This document shows positions 4,225 to 20,022 of a stretch of DNA of 64,000 nt, piece after piece. The translations under genes were made by a program, and so were the position numbers. The notes under the pieces were generated by a model. It saw nothing but the letters and a program-made list of their open reading frames with translations. It had not been told where the DNA came from and made no database searches. The first letter of the stretch is position 1. Each line of letters starts with the position of its first letter. The stretch is taken from positions 62,001 to 126,000 of the forward strand of contig NZ_JAAKEB010000007.1 in assembly GCF_011038965.1 (NCBI RefSeq). Reading direction: 5' to 3'. Source of the stretch: Adlercreutzia sp. ZJ141. GTDB lineage: Bacteria > Actinomycetota > Coriobacteriia > Coriobacteriales > Eggerthellaceae.

Positions 4225-4875
4225 CTACAGCGCCTGGGCTTGTGCGCGAAGGCGGGTGGCTAGGATGTTGAAAAGTACGCCACAGATGGCGAAGGCGAGT
4301 AGGTACACTTTGCCTACGGTTGTGGTAAGAATGGCCAGGAAATCGCCCATGAAAGGCACGGTGAGCACCACGTTTCCGTGGTAGTTGGCGTACGGCACGC
4401 GATCGAGGTCTTCGTTGGCATTGGCGTCGCCTTTGGTGGTGATTGCGCCTTCTACCACGTTGTTAGCGGTTGCGCGATGCACCACCTGGGTGTCCTCGCG
4501 CGCAAACGCAATGATGTCGCCGGCAACCACATCGGCAGCGTCTCCTGGCGCCACAAACACGGCGCTGCCCACCGGAATGGCCGGCTCCATAGAACCTGAC
4601 TCAATGCGCAGAACTTGCATGCCAGCCACATTCGGCAAAACAGCGGGAAGAAGCAGCCCTATCACGCTTATGAGAATGAGTATGCCCGCGCAGTTACACA
4701 CGGTGGCCGCAATGCGCTTACGACGCCGTCGCCTCTTCGACGCCGCAGATCGCCCAGTGCGGCTCTGTGGTGCTGTAGCACGCTCACTGCGGCCATCAGA
4801 TGCCACAGCACGCCCATTACGGCCGCCAGACGCCGCAGCTTGGCTTCGGCGTCTTTTCGATGCTGCCAGTTTCAC
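4225..4875 (-). CDS. sipW: SipW-type (ER/archaeal-like) signal peptidase I
   Basis: About 217 residues from a GTG at 4875, one base after the stop of the upstream gene, with GAGAAG upstream. A longer frame reaches 4953 but overlaps the upstream gene. The N-terminus is a basic, Ala/Arg/Ser-rich cytoplasmic stretch of about 55 residues. A membrane segment (AGILILISVIGLLLPAVLP) follows, then the catalytic serine in IESGSMEPA (Ser95) and a histidine in TQVVHRA (His133) in place of lysine. Ser/His is the hallmark of SipW-type peptidases. A second membrane segment ends the protein. It sits at the end of the cluster holding three SipW-substrate-like proteins, so it probably processes TasA-like fibre subunits. 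Confidence 0.85.
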   Translation of the reverse strand: MKLAASKRRRSQAAASGGRNGRAVASDGRSERATAPQSRTGRSAASKRRRRRKRIAATVCNCAGILILISVIGLLLPAVLPNVAGMQVLRIESGSMEPAIPVGSAVFVAPGDAADVVAGDIIAFAREDTQVVHRATANNVVEGAITTKGDANANEDLDRVPYANYHGNVVLTVPFMGDFLAILTTTVGKVYLLAFAICGVLFNILATRLRAQAQAL

Positions 4876-4876
4876 G

Positions 4877-6013
4877 CTATTCTTCTCGGATCGCACTCTG
4901 AGACCGCCTGCGAACAACAATGAAATACCACACGGCAGCGCCCACAGCCACAAGTGCTAAACAGATAGCGATTATGCCAACCGGCGATGTTAGCCCCTGA
5001 AGCACTTGCGACTTTCCTTGATCTTCGACGCGGGAAGCAAGCGGAACGTCGTTGTCGTCAATGGAATCAAGCTCACGGGGAGCACCGGCTAGTGGCACGC
5101 CGTCCGAAGAGATGTCGGCTGTAGGCGCCGGATTCTGCTCGACAGCACCCTCTTGGGCGTCCTGGGCATCTTGATCGGCCTGGTCAGCAGCAGCGTCTTG
5201 GCCTGCCCCGCCGGCCGCACCCGCAGCGCCACCAGCTGCCCCACCGGCAGCACCGCCAGCACCTGCGCCAGACTCAACCGGCGAATACACGAACACGAAC
5301 GCGTTACTGGATTCATCCTCAGTAAGGGTGCCTGTCAGATTGTACGCCTGGGGCCTGTATCCTTCGATGTAGCGGTACGCCACCACCGGGCGGTCTCCAA
5401 CGTTGCCCTCAAAGGTTTGCGAGGGAGCAAGCTCGCGCCCGCTTTCGTCCACATAGCTTACCGTGTAGTGCGTAACCGAACCCTTCATACCATAGACGAC
5501 CACTAAGTCGATGTCTTGGTTAACCACAAACGACGAGGTATTCACCACGGCTTGCGCCGTGTCGTTTTGACGTCCGGCGATCTTGATACCCTTTACGTAG
5601 TATTTGCTGCTGTCAGCAACGTTTACAACGTACTCCTTGCCACCATAAGGCCAACGCTCTCCCGCGGGTATACCCTGCCACACCTCACATTCCTTGCCGT
5701 TAACCGTACCCTGATTACCGGCGAATAGGCGCACCGTGTAGGTGTAGTTCTCGTTTTTGCTATTGGTAGTGTCATCGGCAGCATAAGCAGTACCGGGGCA
5801 CAGCACCACACATAACGCCAACGTTGCAAATAGTGATGCAACCGCCGCCATAAAAACAGCCGTCATGGTGTTTGAACGAACGCGACCAGAATCGGCGGTT
5901 ATGCATGCATTGGCCACCTGCGTGCCAACGCTGCGAATGCCAACGGTGTCTTGTGCGCCTGTAGCCACCTGAACGCCAACAGTGTTCGCGCTTGTAACCC
6001 TAACGCCTTGCAT
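4877..6013 (-). CDS. MucBP-domain surface protein with C-terminal membrane anchor
   Basis: 378 residues from ATG 6013 (GGAAAGGA upstream); this start overlaps the previous gene by 14 bases. A hydrophobic signal segment near residues 50-80 ends in GTAYAADD. A middle domain (YTVRLFAGNQGTVNGKECEV) is followed by a MucBP-like repeat, YTVSYVDESGRELAPSQTFE to FVFVYSP. A low-complexity Gly/Ala then Asp/Gln linker comes next, and a C-terminal transmembrane helix with RRR tail. There is no LPXTG, so it is membrane-anchored. MucBP domains bind mucin-like glycans in other Gram-positives; adhesion here is inferred. It is immediately followed by sipW. Confidence 0.72.
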   Translation of the reverse strand: MQGVRVTSANTVGVQVATGAQDTVGIRSVGTQVANACITADSGRVRSNTMTAVFMAAVASLFATLALCVVLCPGTAYAADDTTNSKNENYTYTVRLFAGNQGTVNGKECEVWQGIPAGERWPYGGKEYVVNVADSSKYYVKGIKIAGRQNDTAQAVVNTSSFVVNQDIDLVVVYGMKGSVTHYTVSYVDESGRELAPSQTFEGNVGDRPVVAYRYIEGYRPQAYNLTGTLTEDESSNAFVFVYSPVESGAGAGGAAGGAAGGAAGAAGGAGQDAAADQADQDAQDAQEGAVEQNPAPTADISSDGVPLAGAPRELDSIDDNDVPLASRVEDQGKSQVLQGLTSPVGIIAICLALVAVGAAVWYFIVVRRRSQSAIREE

Positions 6014-6899
6014 GCTTGCCGTCCTTTCCCGCTGCTCGTCCGGCAACTCCCCTCGCTGCCTTACCCGCAGGTACCCCAGTGACATCCCCCGCTGCCTCTT
6101 GCTCGCGCCTCAAACGTCGCCCGAGCAGCGCCAACAGCAGTAACACCGCGCCACCTGCGGCCACTAGGGCAAACAACAGCAGCTTGCCCAATTGATCGCC
6201 CGTTTGCGGAAGCGATGAACCAATTGGACCACCCGGAGCCGGTGATCCCGGCGACTCGGGCGTGAGCTCTACCGCGAAGTTCATCTTGATGTCGGCCAGC
6301 GTGTCTTGGTAGGCATTGTTGTTCGTTTCGCCATCAAGGGAAACCTGCAGCGTAACCAGGCCCTGCTCGCCCGACTTCAGTGTGTCTAGGTACAGAAAGT
6401 CTTCAAGCGAGCTAGTGGCTTCATTTAAGCCCTCGCCCGACGAACCATATTCGTCGCCACCAACTTCATCGCTGTTGAACAGAGTTTTCTCCTGACCGGA
6501 CGGCCCCTTATACGTAAGCACGTAGCCATAGCCAGAGCTATGTGCCACTTTTACCGATTCTTCGAGCGAGCGTATTACCTCGTTGGTCATGTACCAATCG
6601 GTGGTGGCGGCATGCTCGTTTTTGATGGTCACAGCCACAGTGCTCACGTCACCCGGCTGCATGTCGGACACCGCATCGGTGAAGTTCATGTTCTCAGGTG
6701 AATGCACCATCTGCTTATCGGGCGTAAAGGTTACCATCCAGTCGGTGCGACCTTGGTATTCATCGGCACATGCCGCGCCCGGCACCAAAACAACCGCCAT
6801 ACAAACCGCGCAAAAGGCCAACACTGCCGCCAGAAGACCCGTCACCGCACTCGCACGCCCACGAACACCCCGCGCGCCCATTGCTTCTGTGTATCCCAT
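6000..6899 (-). CDS. LPQTG sortase-anchored surface protein of the TasA-like cluster
   Basis: 299 residues from ATG 6899, eight bases after AGGAGG; a GTG at 6905 is too close to that ribosome binding site. There is a signal peptide (VTGLLAAVLAFCAVCMAVVL ... GAACADEY). The exported domain has a VTIKNEHAATTDWYMTNEVI strand pattern like SipW-substrate/TasA proteins. A Pro/Gly linker leads to LPQTG, then a hydrophobic helix and an unusually long (about 45 residues) basic cytoplasmic tail. Sortase would join it to the cell wall or pilus. It is the only protein of the TasA-like group here with a sorting signal. Confidence 0.78.
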   Translation of the reverse strand: MGYTEAMGARGVRGRASAVTGLLAAVLAFCAVCMAVVLVPGAACADEYQGRTDWMVTFTPDKQMVHSPENMNFTDAVSDMQPGDVSTVAVTIKNEHAATTDWYMTNEVIRSLEESVKVAHSSGYGYVLTYKGPSGQEKTLFNSDEVGGDEYGSSGEGLNEATSSLEDFLYLDTLKSGEQGLVTLQVSLDGETNNNAYQDTLADIKMNFAVELTPESPGSPAPGGPIGSSLPQTGDQLGKLLLFALVAAGGAVLLLLALLGRRLRREQEAAGDVTGVPAGKAARGVAGRAAGKDGKHARR

Positions 6900-6912
6900 A
6901 GTCACAGCCTCC

Positions 6913-7761
6913 TTACGCCAGGCTTAAGCGATCGCCGGACACTACCACGTTTGCGCCCCACGCGCTTTTTGCGGCGTCTTCGGCGTTGTGGTCTTGCACC
7001 GCCTCTACGCAGGCTTCCACGCAGAAGGTTAGGCCGTCGTAATCGTAGGTAGTGGTGATAACGGTGCCATCGCCAGTTGTGCTTTCGGTTTGAGTGACAC
7101 GGTTACTCACCGCTTTGTTTATGGTTAGCGTATCGGCGAACTCGGACGTTACTCGCGCAGGTTCAAGCAGGTGTGAGTAGTACAGCACCGTGCGCTCAGG
7201 AGTGGAAGCTTCCTCGTCCAAAAGCCAGTCGCCACCAATGTTCTTAAGGTTCAAATCGATCAAGCTAGGGGAAACGTCGGTGCGCTTATTGCCTTGTTCA
7301 TCCACCCAGTACTTTGTAACGGTCACACGCACGAACTGGTTGATAGTACCTGTGTTTTGCACTGTAAGACGCTCGTCGTAGGAAACGCCAGGTTTCAGGC
7401 GTTCGTCAGAGTCAAGCATGTGCTCAAGCAGGCGGCCTTCGGCACCGCGATACACATACACGTAGTCGCTCTCGGATTCCTCGTTACCCGGCTGAACAAA
7501 CGGCACTTCATCGGGCAGCTGCGTGTTTGTTTCGTCCCAATTGTTTTCGGAAATGTAGTCGCGCCAAGCCACGCGCGTGCCATTTTCAAGCAGCGTAACG
7601 CCGATGTTTTGCATCTCGACATGGGTTACGTAGTCCTCAGAGAAATACGTAAGCGCCGCCTGAGCCGAACCTACCCCGCCTATGCAGAGCAGCACCACCG
7701 CCGTTGCGAACAGCGCTAAGGTAACCTTCTGCTTGGCGAGAACGAATTTTGCGCGCTCCAT
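6913..7761 (-). CDS. TasA/CalY-like SipW-dependent surface protein
   Basis: 282 residues. The N-terminal membrane/signal segment (LALFATAVVLLCIGGVGSAQAALTYFSEDY) is followed directly by a beta-rich domain. Phrases such as LTVQNTGTINQFVRVTVTKYW are typical of camelysin/TasA-type proteins, which form biofilm fibres after SipW processing. There is no LPXTG or C-terminal anchor. Its ATG overlaps the stop of the upstream gene as TAATG, and the next gene follows closely, so the three TasA-like genes are translated as a unit. Fibre formation is inferred from family and from sipW in the same cluster. Confidence 0.72.
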   Translation of the reverse strand: MERAKFVLAKQKVTLALFATAVVLLCIGGVGSAQAALTYFSEDYVTHVEMQNIGVTLLENGTRVAWRDYISENNWDETNTQLPDEVPFVQPGNEESESDYVYVYRGAEGRLLEHMLDSDERLKPGVSYDERLTVQNTGTINQFVRVTVTKYWVDEQGNKRTDVSPSLIDLNLKNIGGDWLLDEEASTPERTVLYYSHLLEPARVTSEFADTLTINKAVSNRVTQTESTTGDGTVITTTYDYDGLTFCVEACVEAVQDHNAEDAAKSAWGANVVVSGDRLSLA

Positions 7762-8387
7762 TAGCGATCGCCTCCCTCAGACACATCATCCGCATTGCCG
7801 CTCTCAAGCTTTACGGACCAGTCGGCAGCCTCAGGCTCCACCACCGCTGTGCCGTCAGCCTGATACTGCACGGGTGTTGTCTCGTAAACCACCACCACGT
7901 TGAATGCGTCACCCAGCTGCGGTGCCTCCCCCGTAGTTGAATCAGACACAGGAACATCGCGAATTATCAAGTCGAGCGGCGGCGTGGTTGCGCCGGGGTC
8001 TAACACGCCTTTGTTGCCTTTGTAGTAGTAATACCCATCGCCAGCTTGACTCCAGTTGGTTGCACCGCCGGGCTCGCTGTATTCGATTGCGTAGTCGCTG
8101 GGGCCATAGGCCGCCACACGCACGTATACCGGCTCGCTGGATGCGGCATCACTTTTTATGGTGACCGTCTTTGTCCAATTCGCGAATGTCTCTTCCACCG
8201 TGGTGTCGTCACCCAGTTCCAACGTGTAGCCACCCTTTGCCTGGCAGTACGTGGTGAAGTACGCACTCGCCGCACCAATGCCCGCAACCGCAATGCATAC
8301 CACGGCCAGCGCGAACAGCGCCGACGCCCAGGTGTTGTGTGCCTTGCTGCGAACTTGCTCGCCTGCTTGTTCATACGATAACGCCAT
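7761..8387 (-). CDS. SipW-substrate-like exported protein
   Basis: 208 residues from ATG 8387 (AGGGGGAG six bases upstream; GTG 8390 is an adjacent alternative). The N-terminus has a charged stretch, a hydrophobic segment (WASALFALAVVCIAVAGIGAASAYFT) and then a beta-rich domain with PVYVRVAAYGPSDYAI and NVVVVYETTPVQYQAD. The signal segment followed by AYFT resembles SipW-processed precursors. It lacks a C-terminal anchor. It is the first of three consecutive TasA-like genes. Confidence 0.65.
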   Translation of the reverse strand: MALSYEQAGEQVRSKAHNTWASALFALAVVCIAVAGIGAASAYFTTYCQAKGGYTLELGDDTTVEETFANWTKTVTIKSDAASSEPVYVRVAAYGPSDYAIEYSEPGGATNWSQAGDGYYYYKGNKGVLDPGATTPPLDLIIRDVPVSDSTTGEAPQLGDAFNVVVVYETTPVQYQADGTAVVEPEAADWSVKLESGNADDVSEGGDR

Positions 8388-8405
8388 CACAACTCCCCCT
8401 TCCCG

Positions 8406-9602
8406 CTAGTTCCCCGATGATTCAGCGCCATGGCTGTAGGTGGGAGCAAGCACCCAACCGTTGGTGCCGCTTGCGTCTTTGTCGTAGGTAAAGCTGTTGG
8501 TTACCGACCCACCGTGAACCTTGGTGTTGCCAGTAGTGTTTTCGAAGCTGACATGCGCCACCGCGTCGGCCTCAATGACTGCCGTTTTCTCAGAAGCGCC
8601 CACCACCGTGTACGACGCACCCGAATACACCTCGCGCACCACTACGTTGGCGCCTACCGGTATCTTGTTTTCAATGAGCACGCTTTTGCTGCCCGGCTGG
8701 TTGAACACGATGGAAACCACGTCGTCGTACACCTTGTTACCGCTTGCGTCGGTAGCCTGCACGCTAAACACGAACGTGGCAGCATTATCAACGGCGGTAC
8801 CGTCGGTTTCGAAACGGTCGAGCGTCTTTGTTATTTCAAGCGAACCCATGCGCGGTTTCACCTGCGGCTTCAACAGCGTATCGGCGTCGTAGAGCCAATC
8901 GGTTCCACTAGCTGTGGTAAGGGGCTGACCTGCGGCCGCTTCGTGCGTGGGAAGCGACATAAGCACCGGTTCGAACGCGCATTCCTTAAGCTGCGAATAC
9001 GCCACCGTGGCCGTTCTGCCGTCCTCGAGCGTTGTTGTGTAGTCAGCTGCAGAAAGATTGGCTCCGTGCGCTACCAGCAAGTACAAGCCACTGGCAAGCT
9101 GCGGGAAGTTGGCCTCACACGTTGCATTTTCGCCCCCTGCCGCATTCATGGTGGCGTGGGGCGCGTCTTCGAGCGTGGGGTTAGACGAACCCAGGTCGGC
9201 AAGCACAGCAGACAAGGCCGCTTGCGCAAAATCCTGTGATGCCCGCGTGGCCGCAGCGCTGTCGCCCGAGGCCATGGCGTCGTTCAGTGCCGCAACGTCA
9301 AGGCTTGCGAAAGGCCCTTCTTCCACCGACTCATAGGTGTAAGTGTCATAACCTGGCGTTTGCACCGCGTGTGCCACCAGGTAGGCGTCCACCTGAATGC
9401 CACCGTCGTTGCTGGCAAAGGATTCGGCATCTTCCAAGGCGGCTTCCACCTTCAGGTTGCTGTTCTTGGACAGGTCCAAGCTGGGCTGCGCTGCAGACGC
9501 TAAGCCCGCCGCAGCAAGCAAGCACAGCACTAACAAAGCCGCGGCCGCTAAAAACGCAAGCCACCTGCCTTTCCGTGTGGCAGCAGAAACGTTACCGTTC
9601 AT
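8406..9602 (-). CDS. Minor/ancillary pilin (prealbumin-like, DUF5979/FctA-type fold)
   Basis: 398 residues from ATG 9602, with AAGGAGG eight bases upstream. The start overlaps the sortase stop by 11 bases. Signal peptide: GRWLAFLAAAALLVLCLLAAAGLASAAQ. An N-terminal Ala-rich helical region and a YLLVAHGANLSAADY segment resemble pilin N-domains. The C-terminal MGSLEITKTLDRFETDGTAV ... FVFSVQATDASGNKVYD ... VVREVYSGASYTVVG is a Spy0128/DUF5979-type beta sandwich. No LPXTG motif or C-terminal membrane helix is visible, which is unusual for a pilin. It may be a basal or tip subunit assembled otherwise, or may have lost its sorting signal. Confidence 0.65.
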   Translation of the reverse strand: MNGNVSAATRKGRWLAFLAAAALLVLCLLAAAGLASAAQPSLDLSKNSNLKVEAALEDAESFASNDGGIQVDAYLVAHAVQTPGYDTYTYESVEEGPFASLDVAALNDAMASGDSAAATRASQDFAQAALSAVLADLGSSNPTLEDAPHATMNAAGGENATCEANFPQLASGLYLLVAHGANLSAADYTTTLEDGRTATVAYSQLKECAFEPVLMSLPTHEAAAGQPLTTASGTDWLYDADTLLKPQVKPRMGSLEITKTLDRFETDGTAVDNAATFVFSVQATDASGNKVYDDVVSIVFNQPGSKSVLIENKIPVGANVVVREVYSGASYTVVGASEKTAVIEADAVAHVSFENTTGNTKVHGGSVTNSFTYDKDASGTNGWVLAPTYSHGAESSGN

Positions 9603-10824
9603 GGTGTTCCCTCCTTGCGTCGGGGTTATTAACGTCAGAATCGTCACCGTTAGAGTTGTTGGCGGGCGCAGTAGAAGCCGCTTCATGTGCGCGATGCACA
9701 TCAGTTGCCGTCAGTCCATCGGGCGCGATAGACACCGCGCGCTTGTCTTCTTCGGTCAGGCGCACAGGCTTGCGCCGACTTGCCACCAGAAGGCCAATAA
9801 GCGCCAGAAGCAAAATGGGCACAGCCACGGCGGGTGCCATGATATGGATAGGCACGCGTCGCGCGTCGCTTTCACCAATCAGGTCTTCAGGAATGCCATC
9901 CACCCTATGCCCGCGCACCAGCAGACGGTGCGAGTTCACGCCATAGGGCGTGCACGTTTGCAAGGTGGCGTACTCAATGCCGTCCTGGGCCATAAGGCCG
10001 TCAATTTGCGTGGGCTCCACAATAAGCACCTGGTCAACCTGGTAGGTCAGCTCGGTGTCCAAAACGGTAATGCTGAAGTAATCGCCTTCGTGGATCTCGT
10101 CCAAATAGGTGAACAGCACCGCCGAGGGAAGGCCGCGATGCGCCGACACCACCGGGTGCGTGCCCACATCACCCGTGGGAAGGTGCGATCCCTCCAAGTG
10201 CCCCGCCGATGTTTGCAATGTACCCTCTTCGGTGCCGTGGTAGATGGGCAAATGAACGTCAATCTTCTCGACGGTAACATAGCCAATAATCCCGTTGCCC
10301 GTTACGTTCAGAGCCTGTTCATACTCGTTGTGGATGCTGGGCGCTTCAATGAAGCGATCGGTGAACGTGTCCAGATGCGCATTGTATTCCCGCGCCTGTG
10401 CGAAGATGGCCGCGCGTTCCTCGTCGGTCATGGCAGCCACGGCTTCCTGATAGGCGGCGATGGCACGCGAGGCGTGCATCGAATTCCACCAATCGCTGAC
10501 TGCTGGATAACAAAAAATGCCAATGCCCGCAATAAGCATAAGCGCAATGATGACGCTGGAAAGCGACACGCGCCGCTTCTTCTTGGGAGGCGTGGCCTTA
10601 GGGTCAGAAGCGGATGCACCAGAAGCCGCGTCGTCGAAAACGGACGCATTTGGGTCCGCTTTGCCAGATGCGCGTGCAGCAGAACGTGCGCTTTTGCGAG
10701 CGCGCGCGGCGGGCGCAGCGGCAGGTGCCTTGGCAGCAGAAGCCGAGGCGTTCTGAGCATCAGGCGCAGAAACGGACGCAGGCGCGTCTGCGCTGTTTGA
10801 CGATATGTTCTTGCGCTTGAACAC
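9592..10824 (-). CDS. Class C (pilin-polymerising) sortase
   Basis: 410 residues. A long Ala/Ser/Lys-rich cytoplasmic N-terminus of about 85 residues precedes a membrane helix (VSLSSVIIALMLIAGIGIFC). The catalytic domain has His229 in VVSAHRGLP, Cys291 in TLQTCTPYG and Arg300 in NSHRLLVRG. A second membrane helix near residue 330 and a basic tail follow, the class C topology. It links pilin lysines to LPXTG threonines outside the membrane. It sits between the major pilin (upstream) and the ancillary pilin (overlapping by 11 bases), as in SpaA-type islands. The extended cytoplasmic tail is longer than usual. Confidence 0.9.
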   Translation of the reverse strand: MFKRKNISSNSADAPASVSAPDAQNASASAAKAPAAAPAARARKSARSAARASGKADPNASVFDDAASGASASDPKATPPKKKRRVSLSSVIIALMLIAGIGIFCYPAVSDWWNSMHASRAIAAYQEAVAAMTDEERAAIFAQAREYNAHLDTFTDRFIEAPSIHNEYEQALNVTGNGIIGYVTVEKIDVHLPIYHGTEEGTLQTSAGHLEGSHLPTGDVGTHPVVSAHRGLPSAVLFTYLDEIHEGDYFSITVLDTELTYQVDQVLIVEPTQIDGLMAQDGIEYATLQTCTPYGVNSHRLLVRGHRVDGIPEDLIGESDARRVPIHIMAPAVAVPILLLALIGLLVASRRKPVRLTEEDKRAVSIAPDGLTATDVHRAHEAASTAPANNSNGDDSDVNNPDARREHHER

Positions 10825-10950
10825 CGTGGCGGAAGCTGCTCCTTACAAACGAGGGTGGTCAGTTGCGTTGTTCTAGGTTGGTTGATTTAGCCGGGACGAC
10901 ATCCCGTTGCTCGCCGCGCGCCAACGCGAAGGCATCAACCAGCGCGGCAA

Positions 10951-10977
10951 GACGGGAGCGGGTATACCGCTCCCGTC
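10951..10977 (-). terminator. Intercistronic hairpin between major pilin and sortase
   Basis: A perfect 11-bp stem with a five-base loop (10951-10961 and 10967-10977). On the minus strand there is no U-run after it, so it may act as an attenuator or mRNA-stabilising hairpin that makes more pilin than sortase, rather than as a full terminator. Confidence 0.55.
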
Positions 10978-11011
10978 CGTAGCTTGCGAATGATCGCAAA
11001 AGAGGGAGAAA

Positions 11012-12559
11012 CTATGCCGTGTGCTTCTTAGAGCGACGCTTGATGATGAAGGCAGCCAGAGCGCCCACAATCAGAATGCCGCCACCCACATAGAAGATGG
11101 TCGTGCCGATACCACCAGTGGAGGGAAGCGTAGAGCCAGCTTTGTTGACAACTACAACAACATCAGCAGCAATGTTGTTGTTCTGGTATGTAACAACTTT
11201 CGTTGTTTCTTGATTGGTAATCTCGCCATTCTCATTAAGATATGTGGTGAAGTTTGTTTGCGTCTCCGTTAACTTACTAGGAGTCACCTTGACAGGTGAA
11301 GTCAAACGATTATACCCATTCGGCGCAGCAGTCTCGGTGATAGACACCTCGGCACCCGACTGAAGACCCTTAATGGTGATTTCACCGGTATCAGGGGTTG
11401 TTATAGAATTTGTATAGTCTTCGGTATTGGAACCTTCCGGAAGTGTCTCAAACGCATAAATGTAAGCGCCATTAGCGTCTGTGGCTTTTTTGACATAGAA
11501 CGGGAGTTCAAACGTTGCGCCAGTCAGGCTCTTGCCAGCATCATCAACCTTCTTCAGGGCAATTGCGTAAGTTTTAATCGTCTCTTCATCGCTGTAGTTA
11601 GTGCCACCGCCGCCAGTGGTGTTATCATCTTTTGCCCAGGTCAATGTGACTGTGTTCGTGTTACCTGTTCCCGCGATTGCAGCAGTATCTGTCACGGTAG
11701 CTTCGTAAGTAATAACGACCGTCGCACCATTTTTGTAAAGACTTTCACCAGTAGTAGTGTTAGTCCACGGAATGACAATCTTCTTTTCGTCATCGAACTG
11801 CGTCACTGTCAATGTAGTCTGATCATTAGTCGTAGTGGTGGTGTCTCCATCATTATCAACCAGGATAGACTTAACAATAACATTGCTCAAAAACGTAGGC
11901 AAAGTGTCCTCAATCGTATACGAAGTGATTTTCTTTGCAGTCGCACCTTCACCTTCATAGTTGGAAGTGGAGAAAGAAACCGTATACGTTACTGTCTGAC
12001 CGATATAAACATCTGCGTCATCTACTTTTTTCACAGGCTTTCCTGGTGCCTTTCCATTCTTATCATAAATGGTCACATCAGGATTAGTGGAGTCTACCGA
12101 AATAGCTGTGCCCTGAGTCGTTGTCACAACATAATACCCATACTGAAGATTTGTGAACTCAAGTGCAGTGCCATCGCTCGTCGCGGAAACAGCAAGCTCG
12201 CCTTTAGCTTTAACATAATTCGTTATCGCAGTGATAGCTGCCGGGCTCAGTGGTTTTTCTTTCGCGGTGATATAACCGTTATCATCTTCCGCAAAATAAG
12301 CACTCAGTTCAGTCGGAACCGTGCCAGTGTAAACAATAGAATCGGACGTTTCCTCGCTATTCTTAGCAACCTGAGCATCAAATAGCTTATACACGGAATA
12401 CGTTTCGCCCTTTGCTGCATTCTGAATAGTAATCTTTGCATTATCAGAATGAGGTGTTGTAGCAGGTACCGACTGCGCCAATGCGGCGGCGGGGACCAGC
12501 AGCGCTGTCATGAGCACAGCCACTGCTACGCTCGTTAGTTTTCGTAATGCGGATTTCAT
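11012..12559 (-). CDS. SpaA-type major pilin with LPSTG sorting signal
   Basis: 515 residues from ATG 12559 (GAAGGGAAAG upstream; a longer frame to 12625 lacks support). Signal peptide ends LLVPAAALAQ. The N-domain contains YSVYKLFDAQ and YYVVTTTQGT, then a pilin-like lysine context NPDVTIYDKNG. An isopeptide-forming D2-like domain (TVTYTVSFSTSNYEGEG, YTIEDTLP) and a CnaB-like domain with the E-box VSITETAAPNGYN follow. The C-terminus is LPSTGG, a hydrophobic helix and KRRSKKH. It forms the pilus shaft after polymerisation by the sortase downstream. Ser/Thr-rich and visibly lower in GC than flanking genes. Confidence 0.92.
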   Translation of the reverse strand: MKSALRKLTSVAVAVLMTALLVPAAALAQSVPATTPHSDNAKITIQNAAKGETYSVYKLFDAQVAKNSEETSDSIVYTGTVPTELSAYFAEDDNGYITAKEKPLSPAAITAITNYVKAKGELAVSATSDGTALEFTNLQYGYYVVTTTQGTAISVDSTNPDVTIYDKNGKAPGKPVKKVDDADVYIGQTVTYTVSFSTSNYEGEGATAKKITSYTIEDTLPTFLSNVIVKSILVDNDGDTTTTTNDQTTLTVTQFDDEKKIVIPWTNTTTGESLYKNGATVVITYEATVTDTAAIAGTGNTNTVTLTWAKDDNTTGGGGTNYSDEETIKTYAIALKKVDDAGKSLTGATFELPFYVKKATDANGAYIYAFETLPEGSNTEDYTNSITTPDTGEITIKGLQSGAEVSITETAAPNGYNRLTSPVKVTPSKLTETQTNFTTYLNENGEITNQETTKVVTYQNNNIAADVVVVVNKAGSTLPSTGGIGTTIFYVGGGILIVGALAAFIIKRRSKKHTA

Positions 12560-12799
12560 CTCTTTCCCTTCAATCGTAGTTCGGCGCCGTGGCGCCCCTC
12601 TTGCCGCGTGCGCGGCCTGCCTCACCTTAGGGAGGTGCCCCCTTCCTCTCGCTCTCTATAATTCCTCCTTCCACGCTCATTTCTTATTCTGTGTCTCTAT
12701 CTCACCAAGGCTTTTCACCTGGTCAATTGTCAACTACTCACGTGCGACCTGCGTGGTGAACGCTTTTGCTCTTGCGCGTTGCACTTACAGTAACTCGCG

Positions 12800-13420
12800 C
12801 TAGCTCACCGGGCCGAAGCGGTTTAGCGGCCACACGCGGAGTGCCAGCCTGCCTACCATGTCGTCGGGCGACACGCACCCCACCTGCGAGCTGCGGCTGT
12901 CCACGCTTGTTTCGCGATGGTCGCCCAGCACGAAGTACTTGCCATCAGGCACCTGGTAGGGCAACTTAATGTCGCACGTTCCCAGCGCCTTGTCGGTTAC
13001 GTAGGGCTCGTCGAGCTCTTGCCCGTTCACCGACACGTTGCCGTCTTTGTCAATGTCCACCCAATCGCCAGGCTTTGCCATCACGCGCTTCACCAGCACG
13101 TTGTTGTTGTGGTAAAACGCCACCACGTCGCCCTGCTCTAGCTCACTCGTGCCGAGGGCCACCACCACGTCGCCGTCTTCCAGCGTGTCGGTCATAGACG
13201 AGCCGCTGATTACCAGCGTTGGCAGCATCAGCACTGCTGCGAGCACGGCCACCGCCGCTACTACCACCAAGCCCAGAAGCGTGCTGCTTACGATGCGGCG
13301 CTTCGACTGCCTGCCTTGTTCGCGCGTAAGCTCGGCTTGCACCGATTCTGAGTTCACGAACACCGCCTGGCACGTGATTGCAGCCGGGGTTACCTCCTGT
13401 TCCTGTTCTCCAGCGCTCAC
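12800..13420 (-). CDS. lepB: Signal peptidase I (LepB type)
   Basis: 206 residues, one membrane helix (STLLGLVVVAAVAVLAAVLM). Catalytic Ser75 is in ISGSSMTDTL and Lys111 in VLVKRVMAKPGD, with the GDHRETSVDSR box near the C-terminus. This is the bacterial Ser/Lys type, distinct from the Ser/His sipW gene at the other end of the cluster. Its ATG overlaps the upstream gene by four bases (ATGA). A dedicated LepB within pilus islands is common and is thought to process pilin precursors. Confidence 0.9.
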   Translation of the reverse strand: MSAGEQEQEVTPAAITCQAVFVNSESVQAELTREQGRQSKRRIVSSTLLGLVVVAAVAVLAAVLMLPTLVISGSSMTDTLEDGDVVVALGTSELEQGDVVAFYHNNNVLVKRVMAKPGDWVDIDKDGNVSVNGQELDEPYVTDKALGTCDIKLPYQVPDGKYFVLGDHRETSVDSRSSQVGCVSPDDMVGRLALRVWPLNRFGPVS

Positions 13421-14244
13421 TCATCGGCCGCCTTTGCGTTGTTGCCCGGCGGTGCGGGCGGAGTTGCGGGAGCGGACTTGTTGTCCATTTCCCCGCACAC
13501 TTCCTGCAAGCTGGCGATATACCAATCAGCCGTAACGTTAAACGCCTCCAACGCGCCGCGCACGCCCTCGGCGGCATTCACGATGATTCGCGCGTGCTTT
13601 CGTTCTTCTTCCTTTGACACCTCCAGCTCGTCGAGTCGCGCTTGCATGCGCGCGATGCGTTTGTCTTTATCGTCTAGCCGCCCTTTTAGGCGCTCGATTT
13701 GCTCGTCCTTGACGTCTAGCTTCTCGCGCAGCCGCTCGTTCAGGCTGGTGCAGCGCTCAAATTCATCCGCAACGTCACGCAGGTAGTCTTGCAGGCGCTC
13801 GGCGTCTTTGCTTTGCGTCAGCAGCAACTGCAGCAGGTCTTCGCGACTGAGTCGCGAAAGGTCGCGCGACTTTGTGACGATGACGTGCTCAAGCGAAGGC
13901 GCGCTTATGGCCGGCTCTTTTGCCAGCTGACCGGAAGATGATGGCTCAACGGGTGCAGACCACTCTGCCGCAGGTTTCGAGTCGGGTGCGTTCGATTCGT
14001 CCGGTCGAGACGCATGCACGCCAGTTTCAGCAGCAGCTTCAGCCGATTGCGGCTCAGCTACTTGCGAATTGGTTGCTTTTGCCACAGTTGGCTGTGCGGC
14101 CGCAGCATTAGCTTCCGGCGACTGCGCTTCAGCTACTTGCGAATTGGACTCTTGCGACTCGGATGCTTGAGCACAAGCATCCTGCGACTCAACCGACAAC
14201 GCACCGTCTGTTTTCTTCTTCCTGTCAAACAAACCCATGAGCAT
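13417..14244 (-). CDS. Coiled-coil protein of the pilus cluster
   Basis: 275 residues; ATG 14238 (MGLFDRKKK) is an equally good start after GGAGG. The first 110 residues are low-complexity and Ala/Ser/Glu/Gln-rich, with SNSQVAEAQSPEA and TNSQVAEPQSAEA repeats. Residues about 125-235 are a heptad-rich coiled coil (LSREDLLQLLLTQSKDAERL, LREKLDVKDEQIERLKGRLD). No signal peptide or membrane helix is seen, so it is probably cytoplasmic. It sits between the giant adhesin and lepB with a four-base overlap to lepB, suggesting a role in assembly or localisation. I do not recognise a named family. Confidence 0.6.
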   Translation of the reverse strand: MLMGLFDRKKKTDGALSVESQDACAQASESQESNSQVAEAQSPEANAAAAQPTVAKATNSQVAEPQSAEAAAETGVHASRPDESNAPDSKPAAEWSAPVEPSSSGQLAKEPAISAPSLEHVIVTKSRDLSRLSREDLLQLLLTQSKDAERLQDYLRDVADEFERCTSLNERLREKLDVKDEQIERLKGRLDDKDKRIARMQARLDELEVSKEEERKHARIIVNAAEGVRGALEAFNVTADWYIASLQEVCGEMDNKSAPATPPAPPGNNAKAADE

Positions 14245-14394
14245 TTCACCTCCGTCCCTGTTTCAGCACTTTTGCCTGCATATTTGCCGTAATTGGCTCC
14301 TTTACTACTGACCTTGACATGGCTAGCGCCGCCGCTCGAGTTTCGAGCGCGCATTTTCGCCTGCTATGTAATGGAATAATCGCCTAGTTACGCA

Positions 14395-17300
14395 CTAGAC
14401 GCGCAGTTTTCGTCGTCGCTTTGCCGCGATTCCCACGCCCGCGCACGCCATCAACATTGCGTCGACGCCAAGCAGGGTGCCTACGCCCCCGCCGCCCGTT
14501 TCAGGCAACTCAAATCCCGCCTTGTTTACAACCTTAACTATGGGAACTTCCTTGCTTGCACCATTCGCACCTGTAATAGTGGCCTTTTCAGCCGCAAGCG
14601 TTCCAACTTGTTGAGGCTTGCCCGCTGCGTCCGTATATGTTTCACTGGTGCCCGGAACTACCTGTTTGTTGCCTACAATCACACCATTTTCGGTGCCATG
14701 CGTAAGTTCGAGGGTAATAGGTTCCGTGAGCGGCGCATGCCCAAGCGGTGCCTTGGTTTCGACCAAGTAGTATTTCTCACCAAGCACATCAGTGGGAACC
14801 AGGTTTTCAAATGCGATCTGGCCTTCGATCCCCCCATCAGCTGCGGAAGCCGTAACTCCCTCATCCACCTTGACGTACATGCCTGCAGGCAACCCGTTCA
14901 CCGCTTTGCCTGTCTCGCCTTCCAGAGCCTTTCGATAAAGCTTGAACTCAGCACCCGCAAGACCATCCGCGCTCACATTATCGCTCGCTTTATCGCTCGT
15001 CTTCTTTAGGACGAAATCACAGCTCACCGCCTGTACGACGGGATTAGGGTAGGTCACGGTCTGGGTTTCGTCATTCTTTTTGTACGTTAAAGTTGCGGTC
15101 TTATTCGAATGGAAGCCTGGCTGCCCAGAGCTGGTTACATGCGCGGTGTCGTAATCCGTATTCTTATCGCCCTCAACAGGACTTCCACTAGCGCCGCCAT
15201 CCAGGTAATTTCCTTCCGCTGCGACATAGTCTCGATAGGCCTTGCCGGTGGTCTTCACGTTGAATGACAGAGTGACCTTAGTGCCAGGTTCTGGTATGTA
15301 GTCTGGCTCAAACGTGGCAGTGATCTTCTTTGTATCTTTGTCGTATGTGACAGAGTGCAGGATTCCCTGACCCTGGTATACGTTTTCGGGTTTAAATCCA
15401 TTGTCTGGCTGTTTTATCTCCGTGACATTCCCGTTCTCGTCTGTTATGACCTCAGGATTCTTATAGAGAACTACTTCAGTGCCATCAGCCTTATGGAGAG
15501 TTACTTTGAAGTCTGGTGTACTCGCAAGGTCGACATAGTCACTCAAGGTGTCCGTAATAGTAAGATCAGAGTACACCGCACCGTACATGAGCTTTTTGAG
15601 ATCCCGCCTTAGCTGGATTGTATTGTTTGCAAGATAGAAATTCCCTCCATTGCGCTTCATGTTTTCCAAGATCGTATTATCGCCAGTATTGGCATTGGAG
15701 GCTACAGAAACTGTATTGACAATGAGATTAGGGTTAGCGTCCATAAGTTCTTCAAAATAACTCTCAGTCGCCGTCTTGACAACCCCTTGAATACCGTTCA
15801 CTTCATAACCGAGGCCACCCTTATTCCAATGCACACGTCCCGTCAGGCCGGTATAAGACGAGAGATAATAAGTTGGAATGCCGTCGGACAGAAACAGCAT
15901 AACCTTTTTATGCCCATTCCCTGCTATTTTCGGATCTGTTAGCAAGCTCTTTGCCTCAAGAAGGCCTGCACTATAATTCGTTCCATTATTCGCTTGTCCA
16001 GCCACATTAGAAGCTTTTGGCGTTTTTGTCCACGGTACAAGAACCGTAGCGTCCTCGTTATAGTTATAACTGTCCATTAGTCCAGGGCTCTTTCCCTGGA
16101 AACCCACTACAGCCAAATAGTTGTCTTTGTTCGCCTTTAGAAACTGGTAGATCAACCCTTCTGTTTTCTTAGCTTCATAGTCATCGCCGTAAGTGCCATC
16201 TAGTATCAGCCGCACAGCCTCGTCGCGAAAGATTGCTGTAGGGGGAGTTACACGGTCATCCTGCATATCCTTGTACAAGTCTTCATCTGTATCATAGTCC
16301 ATATGCATGCTGCCGGACTGGTCGACGACAATCAGAAGGTCAAGGGGCTCGACTTGTGAGGCCAATTCGGCTGTCAGATTCAAGCGATAGAGGTCAGTCT
16401 TGTCAATGGGTTTGCCTTGGGTGTCGGTCGCGTTATCGAGAATTGTATCAGTGTTTTCCACGCCGTCGCGGAATGCGTCGATGGTTTTGTTCCACGTAAG
16501 CGTTCCATCAGTGTTGGTAGTCGGGGCGTCAGGAGTAACAAGTTTATCTCCTTCTGCCTGGATGACAGGATGTTCGTATGGAACTGGTGTTTGTTCTGTT
16601 CCTCCCGATGTAAAGCTGACGGTAGCCTTATTATTCGAGTGAAAACCCGGCTTGTTAGAGCTGGTCTCGTTGCCAGAATAGTCGGTCTCAGCATCACCCG
16701 TGACGCTGCCGTATGTCCTATCGAGCGCATAGTCTTCATAAGCTTTTTTCGTAGCCACTACGTTAAAGGAAAGAGTATATGTGCATCCGGATTCAACCTC
16801 ATAATCCTGCTTAAACTGAGCTACCACTTTCCTTGTATTGGGGTAGTATGCCACGCTCTCCAGCTTGTCCTGGCCGGCTGTCGTAATGCCAATATTGCCA
16901 TTCTCGTCGCGACCATAGAGCAGCGTTTCGTGACCCTCAGCATCTTTCATGACAACCTTAAGGTCAGGTTGGCCTTTATAGTAGTCAACATACTCACTCA
17001 GGTTGTCTTCGATTTTCAGGTTGGTGGCATAGGAACCCATGGCGGCCTTTTGCAAGTCTTTTTCTAACTCATCCTTATTGGTAGCGGGAAGATATCGCCC
17101 ACCGCTCACATCCGCCATGTTCTTTAGCGTCGCGTCTTCACCAGGCAATGCTAAACCTCTACCAGTAAAAATACCGACAGTGTAGACATCAACGGTATTA
17201 TTATTTGGCCAGAATACTTTATTAAAGTATTCTTTGGTTTTGTCTTTGCTGGGTTCTGTCACACCGGGATTTGTGTATCCGTACCCGCCGCCTTCTTTTT

Positions 17301-19668
17301 CTCCGTTTTCGACGTCGCCAGTTGGGTAATAAATCGTCGGAACACCATCAGAAATGAAGATCAACACTTTTTTGCTATTATTTGTCGGTTGCTTGAATAA
17401 ATCCTCTGCTTTCTTCAAACCGGCTATATAGTTGGTGTAATGATTTCCTGTTGGTCTCGAAAAACCCGGCGTTCCAGTCCACCTAATTTCTTTTGCTTGC
17501 ACGTTTACTGGATAACATGTGCCAGATACCCAACCTCCATCGGTGTTATCTTTATTTTTACTCAACGGCTCTACATCTGTTTGATATCCAGTCGTATCCG
17601 CATCTCCAAAGAAACCCACAACTGCAACTCTGTTTTTTTCGCTCATGCCCAAAAAGCCGTTGATAAGCCCTTTATCAGAGCCTGTATCGTTCAGAATTTC
17701 TTCAACCGCGTCGTCCCTTCTTTTTCTATCTCCCATGTCGGTGTCGCTCATACTCGATGACTCGTCGACCACGATCACAAGGTCAATGCCTTGCTCTTCG
17801 GTCGTGAGGGTAGCGTCCAGGTAGAGACGATAAAGGTCTTTTTTTTGTTCTTCGGTAGTATCGTTGTCCAAATTCGTGTCAGGATTGTCGCTACTTGCGT
17901 CGTTGTTATCGCGGAATGCATCGATGGTCTTGTGCCACGAAGTCAATTCCGGGCCGCCAGCTGAACCAGCTCTACCGTTCATACCAGCCGCCCCGCCTGC
18001 ATTCAGTACCTGCGGCACCGCGAACAATTCGGAGAAACTATCCAGCGTGAAGCTGATGTCTTGGCCATTGTTATTGTTAGTGGTTTCTGCCTGCACCGTT
18101 TCCAGCTCGTCGCCAAAATGGACAATCTCATAGGTTATATCCTGCTGCTGCCCTGCGCAGCTAATGGTTACCGTAACCGGCGCAGCGGGCTCCACTTCCG
18201 TATCACCCACATAAAAGCCCACATCAAACAGGCGAATACCATCAGCGGGTTCGGCTTCCCAACCGTATTGCGCGGCTACCTCGGCGTAGCGCTGCTGGTA
18301 GTGCTCTGAATCCCTCGCGTATTCGATAGCCCGCAGCTCGGCACCCTCGGGCAGCTGAGCTTCGGGGCTATAGGTTGCCTTTACGGTGTAGCCTTCGCCT
18401 TCGAAGGTTTGGGTGATTTGGTTATCGCTTTGCGCTTGGGGCTCTCCAGCGGCCTGACGGGCGTCCATGATCTTTTGCAGCGCTTCTGCATTTTCCGGGA
18501 CTTCTGCATAGCCCAGGATGCGCGCGTCAGCGCGATCGGCGCTGCGCTCGTAGTCGATGCGCAGCGCCTTGTGGGTGTGGCTTATCGCATCTTCTGCGTC
18601 ACCTTGTATTACACGGATACGATCGGGGTTGTGTTGATCGGCGGGCAGCAGTCCTTCCACAATACCCACGTGGTCTGCCAAGGCTGCAACTTCTACATAG
18701 GCGGATGCAACCTGGTCTTGCGCAACAATTTCTGCATTCTGCGCATCTTGTGCTGCAGTTTCCACACCTTGCGTTGCAGCGGCTTCAGCCTGTGCCTTGG
18801 TCAAGTTCTCCGCTGCCTTCGTGCGCGCGGTTGCCACCTTTTCCGCGTCTTCAGCCTTCGCGAAGAATACCGCGTCGCCCGGTTTCGGCTCATAGCCGCT
18901 TTCCACAGGGTGATACAGCCCATATTCCGGGTTCTGCAGCGCTTGCGTCCATTCGGCACACGTGAGCGCAACCGGGTAATCGTTCGCACCGGCGTAGTGC
19001 AGGCAGAAAGTTGCGAAGGGTACACTCCAATCAGCATAGGGGCTACCAGCCCACGCGCCGTAACGGGTGTAGCCTTTCTGTTGGCCTTTATCGTTCGTGG
19101 TAATGTTCTTCTGGCTTTCGGTGTAATCAAGCTGCGACTGCGCGACGGCCACCACGTCTTTGGTCCAAGTGCCACTTAGATTGGTGGGCAGGGTTGCCTC
19201 CCACTGTTCCGGTGTTTCTGTGCTGGAGTTGGCGTCGCCATAGCAGCTTTCGGTGTGAGTGTGCTCAGGCATGGTGCAAGTGAGGGTTTTCTGGTAGCAC
19301 GCTTGCGCGTGGGTATGACCTGGGGTTTCTGGAGTGGTGCAGGTGAGGGTTTGGTCGCTTGCGGCTTGCGCGGTTGCGGAGGTTGCGTCGCCGGCCGCTT
19401 GCTGCTGTGTCGCCGCGTAGCAACCGTTTGCTACCGAGTGCTGGTGAGCTTGTATTTCTTCCTGCCCACACGCCAGCGTTTGCGTGTAGCAGGCGTCATT
19501 ATGAGTATGCTCGGCAAAGCCGCATGTTGGGTCCCCCGTCATGGCAATGCCGGTGTTCTTCAACGCCCAGAACACGCCAAACACGACAAAGACCGCAGCA
19601 AACACCGCCGCGGTAAACGCGATCCTCTGCAGTTTTCTATTCCTGCGAGCAGCCTCCAGATAAGCCCG
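14395..19668 (-). CDS. Giant LPETG-anchored adhesin with Cys/His repeats, degenerate CHAP-like domain and two VWA domains
   Basis: 1757 residues from ATG 19668, which has GAAGGTGG upstream and starts just before the membrane segment; the frame opens as far as 19821 without a ribosome binding site. Order: N-terminal membrane helix; four His-x-His...Cys-Tyr repeats (HTHNDACY, HQHSVANGCY, HTHAQACY, HTHTESCY); a CHAP/NlpC-like domain (GYTRYGAWAGSPYADW then SVPFATFCLHYAG, and HVGIVEGL); VWA 1 with MIDAS DESSS near residue 635; VWA 2 with DQSGS near 1116; a SpaA/CnaB domain with E-box YYLVETKAPLG; LPETGG near 1720, membrane helix, RRRKLRV. Both VWA units share KTIDAFRD...DLYRL lead-ins, so about 480 residues are duplicated. 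It is probably the pilus-tip adhesin. Confidence 0.88.
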   Translation of the reverse strand, partial: RAYLEAARRNRKLQRIAFTAAVFAAVFVVFGVFWALKNTGIAMTGDPTCGFAEHTHNDACYTQTLACGQEEIQAHQHSVANGCYAATQQQAAGDATSATAQAASDQTLTCTTPETPGHTHAQACYQKTLTCTMPEHTHTESCYGDANSSTETPEQWEATLPTNLSGTWTKDVVAVAQSQLDYTESQKNITTNDKGQQKGYTRYGAWAGSPYADWSVPFATFCLHYAGANDYPVALTCAEWTQALQNPEYGLYHPVESGYEPKPGDAVFFAKAEDAEKVATARTKAAENLTKAQAEAAATQGVETAAQDAQNAEIVAQDQVASAYVEVAALADHVGIVEGLLPADQHNPDRIRVIQGDAEDAISHTHKALRIDYERSADRADARILGYAEVPENAEALQKIMDARQAAGEPQAQSDNQITQTFEGEGYTVKATYSPEAQLPEGAELRAIEYARDSEHYQQRYAEVAAQYGWEAEPADGIRLFDVGFYVGDTEVEPAAPVTVTISCAGQQQDITYEIVHFGDELETVQAETTNNNNGQDISFTLDSFSELFAVPQVLNAGGAAGMNGRAGSAGGPELTSWHKTIDAFRDNNDASSDNPDTNLDNDTTEEQKKDLYRLYLDATLTTEEQGIDLVIVVDESSSMSDTDMGDRKRRDDAVEEILNDTGSDKGLINGFLGMSEKNRVAVVGFFGDADTTGYQTDVEPLSKNKDNTDGGWVSGTCYPVNVQAKEIRWTGTPGFSRPTGNHYTNYIAGLKKAEDLFKQPTNNSKKVLIFISDGVPTIYYPTGDVENGEKEGGGYGYTNPGVTEPSKDKTKEYFNKVFWPNNNTVDVYTVGIFTGRGLALPGEDATLKNMADVSGGRYLPATNKDELEKDLQKAAMGSYATNLKIEDNLSEYVDYYKGQPDLKVVMKDAEGHETLLYGRDENGNIGITTAGQDKLESVAYYPNTRKVVAQFKQDYEVESGCTYTLSFNVVATKKAYEDYALDRTYGSVTGDAETDYSGNETSSNKPGFHSNNKATVSFTSGGTEQTPVPYEHPVIQAEGDKLVTPDAPTTNTDGTLTWNKTIDAFRDGVENTDTILDNATDTQGKPIDKTDLYRLNLTAELASQVEPLDLLIVVDQSGSMHMDYDTDEDLYKDMQDDRVTPPTAIFRDEAVRLILDGTYGDDYEAKKTEGLIYQFLKANKDNYLAVVGFQGKSPGLMDSYNYNEDATVLVPWTKTPKASNVAGQANNGTNYSAGLLEAKSLLTDPKIAGNGHKKVMLFLSDGIPTYYLSSYTGLTGRVHWNKGGLGYEVNGIQGVVKTATESYFEELMDANPNLIVNTVSVASNANTGDNTILENMKRNGGNFYLANNTIQLRRDLKKLMYGAVYSDLTITDTLSDYVDLASTPDFKVTLHKADGTEVVLYKNPEVITDENGNVTEIKQPDNGFKPENVYQGQGILHSVTYDKDTKKITATFEPDYIPEPGTKVTLSFNVKTTGKAYRDYVAAEGNYLDGGASGSPVEGDKNTDYDTAHVTSSGQPGFHSNKTATLTYKKNDETQTVTYPNPVVQAVSCDFVLKKTSDKASDNVSADGLAGAEFKLYRKALEGETGKAVNGLPAGMYVKVDEGVTASAADGGIEGQIAFENLVPTDVLGEKYYLVETKAPLGHAPLTEPITLELTHGTENGVIVGNKQVVPGTSETYTDAAGKPQQVGTLAAEKATITGANGASKEVPIVKVVNKAGFELPETGGGGVGTLLGVDAMLMACAGVGIAAKRRRKLRV

Positions 19669-20022
19669 CATAGTACTCGCCACCTTCGTTTCCCATGCTA
19701 GCGCACCTGCTACCAGGGGTTCCGGGTGCGCTTGCCTGCTGTTTCGCACGTGCTTTGCGGCCAGCTTCGCCGCGTTGCGCTTACGCACGTTGCGACAATT
19801 TGCTGCGGGGTACCGTTGCACGGGGCGGCTTTTGGCCGTGAAGCGCTGCTACTCCAGCATGTTCCAGCGTTTTCAGTACGCTTGATTTTAACGCCACAGT
19901 TGCGGTTCGTCCACAGGTGGGGTATGAATGTCCCCCCTCCCCATTTGTGGAGATTTTTTCGAACGCTTTGGGGTGGTGTGAATTTGGGGGGATTTGGGGT
20001 TGCGAGGTTTTTCTTTTATCGA
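19669..20022. other. Intergenic region upstream of the adhesin
   Basis: No gene is seen. It contains an imperfect 14-bp inverted repeat, GTCCACAGGTGGGG at 19909-19922 against CCCCATTTGTGGAG at 19939-19952. This could be an operator or the stem of a leader structure for the minus-strand surface cluster, whose promoter must lie here. G-rich runs follow at 19970-20000. Confidence 0.4.

Follow-up and report, generated by a model that had tools for sequence, protein, structure and literature searches.

A conserved locus of Coriobacteriia and Bacillota joins genes for a predicted sortase pilus to a SipW-dependent block of TasA-like proteins

In a 64,000-nucleotide (nt) stretch (the window) of the 2.29 Mb genome of Adlercreutzia sp. 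ZJ141, a predicted sortase pilus and a block of SipW-dependent TasA-like proteins are encoded side by side in one minus-strand gene cluster (4225-19821). Gram-positive surface fibres are regarded as being built by separate routes, either as sortase pili or as TasA-type fibres, but here our comparison of related loci shows one inherited system with two halves, and a joint function of both halves is well supported by the sequence data. The presence of such a hybrid in common gut lineages provides a direct test of whether one fibre type seats the other, and the locus names candidate adhesion genes in gut Lachnospiraceae and Coriobacteriia.

In the open reading frame listing of the window, every gene of the cluster is an open frame on the minus strand, as originally predicted, and the order along transcription is VWA adhesin, coiled-coil protein, LepB-type peptidase, SpaA, class C sortase (SrtC), DUF5979 protein, TasA-like 1, TasA-like 2 (TasB), LPQTG anchor protein, MucBP protein and SipW (Table 1). 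The SpaA shaft pilin, the VWA tip adhesin and the class C sortase, which is the only one in the genome, are predicted to form a sortase pilus. SpaA and the tip adhesin carry LPXTG-type signals and the sortase scores well above its cut-off, which bears out the class C sortase and LPXTG pilins proposed before. The shaft pilin has an isopeptide domain and also exceeds the cut-off of TIGR04226. Its acceptor lysine (motif VTIYDKN) is aligned in 24/25 sequences, although just 2/25 were found when the motif was searched as a pattern. For the tip adhesin, matches to the Pfam domains DUF7604 (5e-67), VWA_2 (7e-13) and SpaA (2e-8) were obtained. The second block, as predicted from sequence, consists of two BsaA/TasA-like proteins, an anchored beta-sandwich protein, a MucBP protein and SipW. 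The cluster has two distinct signal peptidases, as had been claimed: a Ser/Lys enzyme of the LepB type with both residues intact (GSSM...VKRV) and a Ser/His enzyme of the SipW type. The start of sipW is a GTG at 4875, directly past the MucBP stop codon, whereas its frame had earlier been drawn from 4953.

Table 1. Features of the joined pilus and TasA-like locus in the window, listed along the direction of transcription.
Feature	Position	Strand	Characteristics
VWA/SpaA tip adhesin	14395..19821, likely start ATG 19668	-	two VWA-type stretches, DUF7604, SpaA domain, LPETG anchor
Cytoplasmic coiled-coil protein	13417..14244	-	4-nt overlap with LepB-type peptidase gene
LepB-type signal peptidase I	12800..13420	-	TIGR02227 120 bits, cut-off 47
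SpaA/SpaH backbone pilin	11012..12559	-	NF033902 104.8 bits, cut-off 95; LPSTGG sorting signal
Strong hairpin, spaA-srtC gap	10946..10984	-	12-bp stem, no U-tract
Class C (pilus) sortase	9592..10824	-	NF033745 245.8 bits, cut-off 160; TLQTC active-site motif
DUF5979 pilin-like protein	8406..9602	-	PF19407 9e-8; start and Shine-Dalgarno at 9602
TasA-like 1, SipW-type exported protein	7761..8387	-	AYFTTY after signal peptide
TasA-like 2 (TasB), SipW-type exported protein	6913..7761	-	ALTYFSE
Wall-anchor protein (LPQTG protein)	6000..6899	-	beta-sandwich, LPQTGD and membrane helix; ordinary Sec signal peptide
MucBP-domain protein	4877..6013	-	PF06458 2.9e-6; doubled I-D-x-x-VPLA motif; C-terminal membrane helix
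SipW-type (Ser/His) signal peptidase	4225..4875	-	TIGR02228 74.8 bits, cut-off 51.85; SGSMEP...VVHR

TasA-like 1 was used to search 84,980 species genomes, which yielded 37 loci, the nearest relatives at the cluster being Adlercreutzia isolates. Seven genes (SrtC-DUF5979-TasA-TasB-anchor-MucBP-SipW) appear in identical order and strand in 23/37 loci, and contig ends cut most of the others. Carriers of the joined locus were found among Lachnospiraceae, Oscillospirales and Erysipelotrichaceae as well as in the Coriobacteriia (Atopobiaceae, Slackia, Adlercreutzia), and the gene order is thus kept across two phyla, with proteins about 40% identical. Within the window's own family, TasB matches were detected in 20 of 138 genomes, 11 of them strong. 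Ten of these eleven have a class C sortase within about 10 kb on the same contig, and the eleventh lies at a contig end. Since class C sortases are present in 53 of the 138 genomes, mostly without a TasA block, the link between TasB and the class C sortase is specific.

The TasA-linked enzymes also cluster on the SrtC tree, with 5 label changes compared to a mean of 26.6 after shuffling (0/500 shuffles as low). It is because of the recurring seven-gene order in two phyla, together with this clustering, that we consider a joint function well supported. A chance neighbourhood lacking any functional link appears highly improbable: block and pilus genes form modules that can be separated and their order is rearranged in one genome (G079), but synteny between two phyla and the grouping of TasA-linked sortases contradict it. 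The original statement that SpaA pili and TasA fibres are normally encoded separately agrees with the other SipW/TasA loci of this genome (C53, C48), whereas in the family of loci described here joining is the rule. Adlercreutzia SrtCs stand beside those of Lachnospiraceae with 99% support in the Shimodaira-Hasegawa-like approximate likelihood ratio test (SH-aLRT), which points to transfer between phyla. In the trees of TasB and the anchor, too, Coriobacteriia are interspersed with Bacillota, but the same partner is not resolved; distances of SrtC and TasA-block proteins correlate (r 0.34-0.60), part of which shared ancestry alone could explain. No TasB match was found in 72,556 plasmid records.

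From srtC to sipW, the intergenic spacings are -11, +18, -1, +13, -14 and +1 nt, with starts backed by Shine-Dalgarno sequences. These short gaps and overlaps, together with the good Shine-Dalgarno sequences, indicate one translationally coupled block. The joint expression proposed earlier therefore stands for srtC to sipW and is not established for all of 4225-19668, as a 240-nt gap separates the LepB-type peptidase gene from spaA and a hairpin lies between spaA and srtC. The 71-nt stretch 10930-11000 around this hairpin folds at -35.6 kcal/mol (z -4.1); it possibly serves as a partial terminator or as an mRNA stabiliser. A promoter scan was uninformative, with 13 sites compared to 9.1 (standard deviation 2.9) in shuffled sequence.

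The DUF5979 protein lies at the junction of both halves and is our candidate for the pilus base. Its Lys 278 (numbered in the 431-aa frame) is invariant in 41/41 DUF5979 proteins within a W-x5-[VIT]-x-[LM]-K motif, with W at -9 in 37/41 and V or I at -3 in most of them, and the tryptophan and the lysine are as far apart as in the pilin motif W-x3-V-x-V-Y-P-K. A CnaB-type triad (Lys 292/Glu 357/Asn 388) is likewise kept in 41/41, and DUF5979 has been counted among the intramolecular isopeptide domains (PMC12617251). At its C-terminal end the protein has neither a sorting signal nor a membrane helix, and LPXTG is absent from it in the window and in every relative (37 loci). Basal pilins, which terminate pilus growth, normally have LPXTG in addition to a linking lysine (PMC8244301), whereas the DUF5979 protein has the lysine only. 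With an acceptor-type lysine and no sorting signal, it could only be a terminal base. The basal pilin of a three-part pilus has a wall-sorting signal of its own, which is missing here; if the pilus had two parts and no basal pilin, none would be required.

Based on these features, we propose the following mechanism. The LepB-type peptidase would mature the pilins and SipW both TasA-like proteins. SrtC would string SpaA subunits below the VWA tip by joining the LPSTG threonine to the shaft lysine, and growth would stop once Lys 278 of the DUF5979 protein has received the last SpaA. An assembly of the TasA-like and anchor proteins would hold this anchorless base by the DUF5979 domain at its C-terminus and by its tail. 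The assembly itself would be tethered to the wall through the LPQTG protein; in many Bacillota, a class B sortase (SrtB) would act on a V-x-K/R-TG anchor motif instead. The TasA-like pair may join through N-terminal donor strands, as TasA does. The locus suggests that the TasA-like part helps to hold the pilus on the cell, and docking of a DUF5979 base on the SipW-matured, wall-anchored assembly is a plausible arrangement that we put forward tentatively. It would account for the lack of a sorting signal in the putative pilus base.

The five-gene block TasA-TasB-anchor-MucBP-SipW also occurs by itself. Four members of the window's family (G002, G003, G009, G058) keep the block, preceded by a 1244-1332-aa adhesin, and no class C sortase was found in their genomes. 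The C-terminus of these adhesins aligns with the DUF5979 protein; neither LPXTG nor a C-terminal membrane helix was found in them. In the Bacillota loci L020 and L037, proteins of more than 3,300 aa stand before the block with their upstream ends beyond the available sequence, and in L059 the large protein is interrupted by the contig end. Owing to these incomplete upstream parts, absence of the pilus sortase is established for G002, G003, G009 and G058 only. In all readable cases, the gene immediately preceding TasA-like 1 has a DUF5979-type domain at its end in place of a sorting signal; in pilus-sortase loci, the gene at this place encodes a small protein with a stretch resembling the pilin motif. 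In relatives without pilus sortase, the same assembly would hold a large adhesin ending in a DUF5979 domain. The wider proposal, that the TasA/BsaA-like assembly is a general wall-anchored foot gripping the C-terminal DUF5979 domain of anchorless pilus bases or adhesins, is possible rather than probable in our view. If true, Gram-positive cells would have a new means of holding pili and adhesins, in which only the foot is linked to the wall.

Sequence variation is distributed unevenly over the locus. Between two Adlercreutzia loci (L002, L003), identity is 46% for SpaA, 81% for SrtC, 90% for the DUF5979 protein, 93% for TasB and 98% for the LepB-type peptidase. The genes for SpaA and the tip adhesin are AT-rich, with a GC content at third codon positions (GC3) of about 0.5 (0.55 for the tip adhesin gene) compared to values of up to 0.95. 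Judged by these values, spaA is hypervariable between close relatives, as if swapped or under diversifying selection; the predicted surface-exposed parts vary and the putative foot stays constant.

Several points weigh against a foot of this kind. Conserved linkage is no proof of physical contact, nine loci with a non-LPXTG anchor lack an adjacent SrtB, which weakens the correlation between anchor motif and SrtB, and in the structural comparisons unrelated folds score level with TasA. Many surface proteins carry DUF5979/CnaB-type domains, and the presence of such domains in both the small and the large neighbours could be coincidental. In addition, C. perfringens BsaA forms polymers resistant to sodium dodecyl sulphate without the neighbouring srtB (PMC7395162), so TasA-like proteins can build independent fibres; this is the main reason why our confidence in the foot mechanism is no higher. 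The same observation favours two separate, co-regulated fibres, i.e. a VWA-tipped SpaA pilus beside an independent, wall-anchored matrix fibre of TasA/BsaA-like type, kept together by a shared role in adhesion and biofilm formation in the gut. Such an arrangement would fit the occurrence of the TasA block without pilus sortase (L060-L063) and of most pilus sortases without the TasA block, but it leaves unexplained both the base-like DUF5979 protein without sorting signal in the pilus half and the sortase-less block beside an adhesin ending in a DUF5979 domain. We regard it as a serious possibility that falls short of being probable.

Conserved linkage and translational coupling from srtC to sipW might also be taken as signs of a true composite fibre, with TasA-like subunits within the SpaA shaft or decorating its length. 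However, TasA-like 1 and TasB lack a sorting signal, both in the window and in all relatives, and a sortase would by known chemistry be unable to insert them into the covalent shaft. The suggestion that sortase co-polymerises the TasA-like proteins into the SpaA pilus is not supported by this result, and a composite fibre of any kind is quite unlikely. Alternatively, the role of the SipW-dependent proteins could be that of chaperones or assembly factors, working at the membrane on pilins and large adhesins. They would then be comparable to streptococcal SipA, a peptidase-like protein that pilus polymerisation requires (PMC4049620). This precedent and the company of different surface proteins kept by the TasA block speak for such a role, whereas the catalytic residues kept in SipW and the LepB-type enzyme, the wall-sorting motif on the anchor protein and the conserved beta-sandwich subunits, which suggest a structural role, make it unlikely.

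An hhalign comparison shows TasA-like 1 and 2 to be related (E 2.8e-5). The BsaA family model TIGR04090 matches 19/37 relatives of TasA-like 1 and 31/35 relatives of TasA-like 2 at E<=0.01; the window's own match lies below the model cut-off and its TasA-like 1 misses E<=0.01. Peptidase_M73 gave no match for the TasA-like proteins of the window, the TasB family had only stray single matches in Pfam, and neither profile searches against solved structures (for any of the three families) nor direct comparison with the other TasA-like proteins of the ZJ141 genome returned a meaningful match. In the AlphaFold2 (AF2) model of TasA-like 2 (predicted local distance difference test score, pLDDT, 79), residues 1-14 are unstructured (below 50), and several of these first 14 mature residues are nearly invariant. 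Such an N-terminus would look like a donor strand, without being proof of one. The TasA fibre 8aur is among the Foldseek matches of TasA-like 2 (E 0.033).

Contrary to the three TasA-like proteins originally counted, we find only two. The LPQTG protein has an AxA-type signal and no sequence match to the other two (hhalign probability 0.1-0.8% against both families). Its AF2 model (pLDDT 77) is a beta-sandwich. B. subtilis TasA (5of1) matches it over 142 residues with Z 5.8, a score level with those of unrelated beta-sandwiches. The MucBP protein resembles NF033073 weakly, below the cut-off. In the Lachnospiraceae loci L025 and L027, the anchor and MucBP genes are apparently fused (anchor frames of 638 and 631 aa).

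In most relatives, the anchor motif is V-x-K/R-TGD. A class B sortase follows directly behind SipW in 16 loci, where the anchor motif is V-x-K/R/Q/N-TG or similar and never LPXTG, and it is missing beside SipW in nine L-x-x-TG loci (window, L002, L003, L029, L058, L060-L063). This association between anchor motif and SrtB adjacency (Fisher p 0.001, from genomes that are related and not independent) is only suggestive and serves as a lead. Three of the 16 loci encode SipW and the class B sortase as a single frame (L016:13068-14918, 617 aa; L035:3992-5365, 458 aa; L055:3169-4788, 539 aa), and both TIGR02228 and TIGR03064 match the fusions of L016 and L035. These fusions link export of TasA-like proteins with wall anchoring. 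In the ZJ141 genome, one class-B-like and two further small sortases are encoded away from the cluster and could act on the LPQTG motif.

Compared to known systems, the pilus half resembles three-part SpaABC/SpaCBA pili in its VWA tip, its SpaA/SpaH shaft with LPXTG and acceptor lysine, its class C sortase and a basal candidate with an acceptor-type lysine; it differs in the lack of LPXTG on this candidate across the 37 loci and in the SipW-dependent block after the sortase. The S. pyogenes FCT locus (cpa-sipA-fctA-srtC-fctB; PMC4049620) also has a gene of the signal peptidase family beside the major pilin in a pilus operon. However, SipA lost both Ser and Lys, which the LepB-type enzyme keeps here, and no TasA-like genes have been described in FCT.

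The C. perfringens locus sipW-bsaABCRSD with srtB shares SipW, BsaA-family substrates and an adjoining sortase gene with the present cluster. In the report on it (PMC7395162), BsaA forms stable high-molecular-weight polymers for which srtB is dispensable and the operon contains a two-component regulator, whereas a SpaA pilin, a class C sortase or a DUF5979 protein is not described there. Bacillus TasA/TapA/CalY fibres (5of1, 8aur; PMC9715654, PMC13082335) likewise have SipW-type signal peptides and beta-sandwich subunits, and the conserved flexible N-terminus modelled here would be compatible with their donor-strand assembly. In contrast, a sequence match is obtained here only via the BsaA model, and the B. 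cereus system, reported as sortase-independent, differs from the present link to a wall anchor and a pilus sortase. As far as the accessible parts of the open-access literature go, SipW/TasA and sortase appear together only in the C. perfringens paper, a B. cereus paper and reviews. Neither the hybrid locus nor SipW-sortase B fusions are described in this literature, a search that left aside most subscription papers and all bioRxiv preprints.

Some further observations concern neighbouring genes and the rest of the genome. The coiled-coil protein (13417-14244) weakly resembles DivIVA and adjoins the LepB-type peptidase in about 14 related loci. At a separate locus of the ZJ141 genome (G000, C48), a SipW-type peptidase is fused to an apparent TasA-like exported domain (L046:4092-5744), adjoining a LAQTGD protein and more SipW-type exported proteins. 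A second stand-alone SipW/TasA locus (C53, L045:4401-8792) contains a Peptidase_M73 match and an LSQTGD-type protein.

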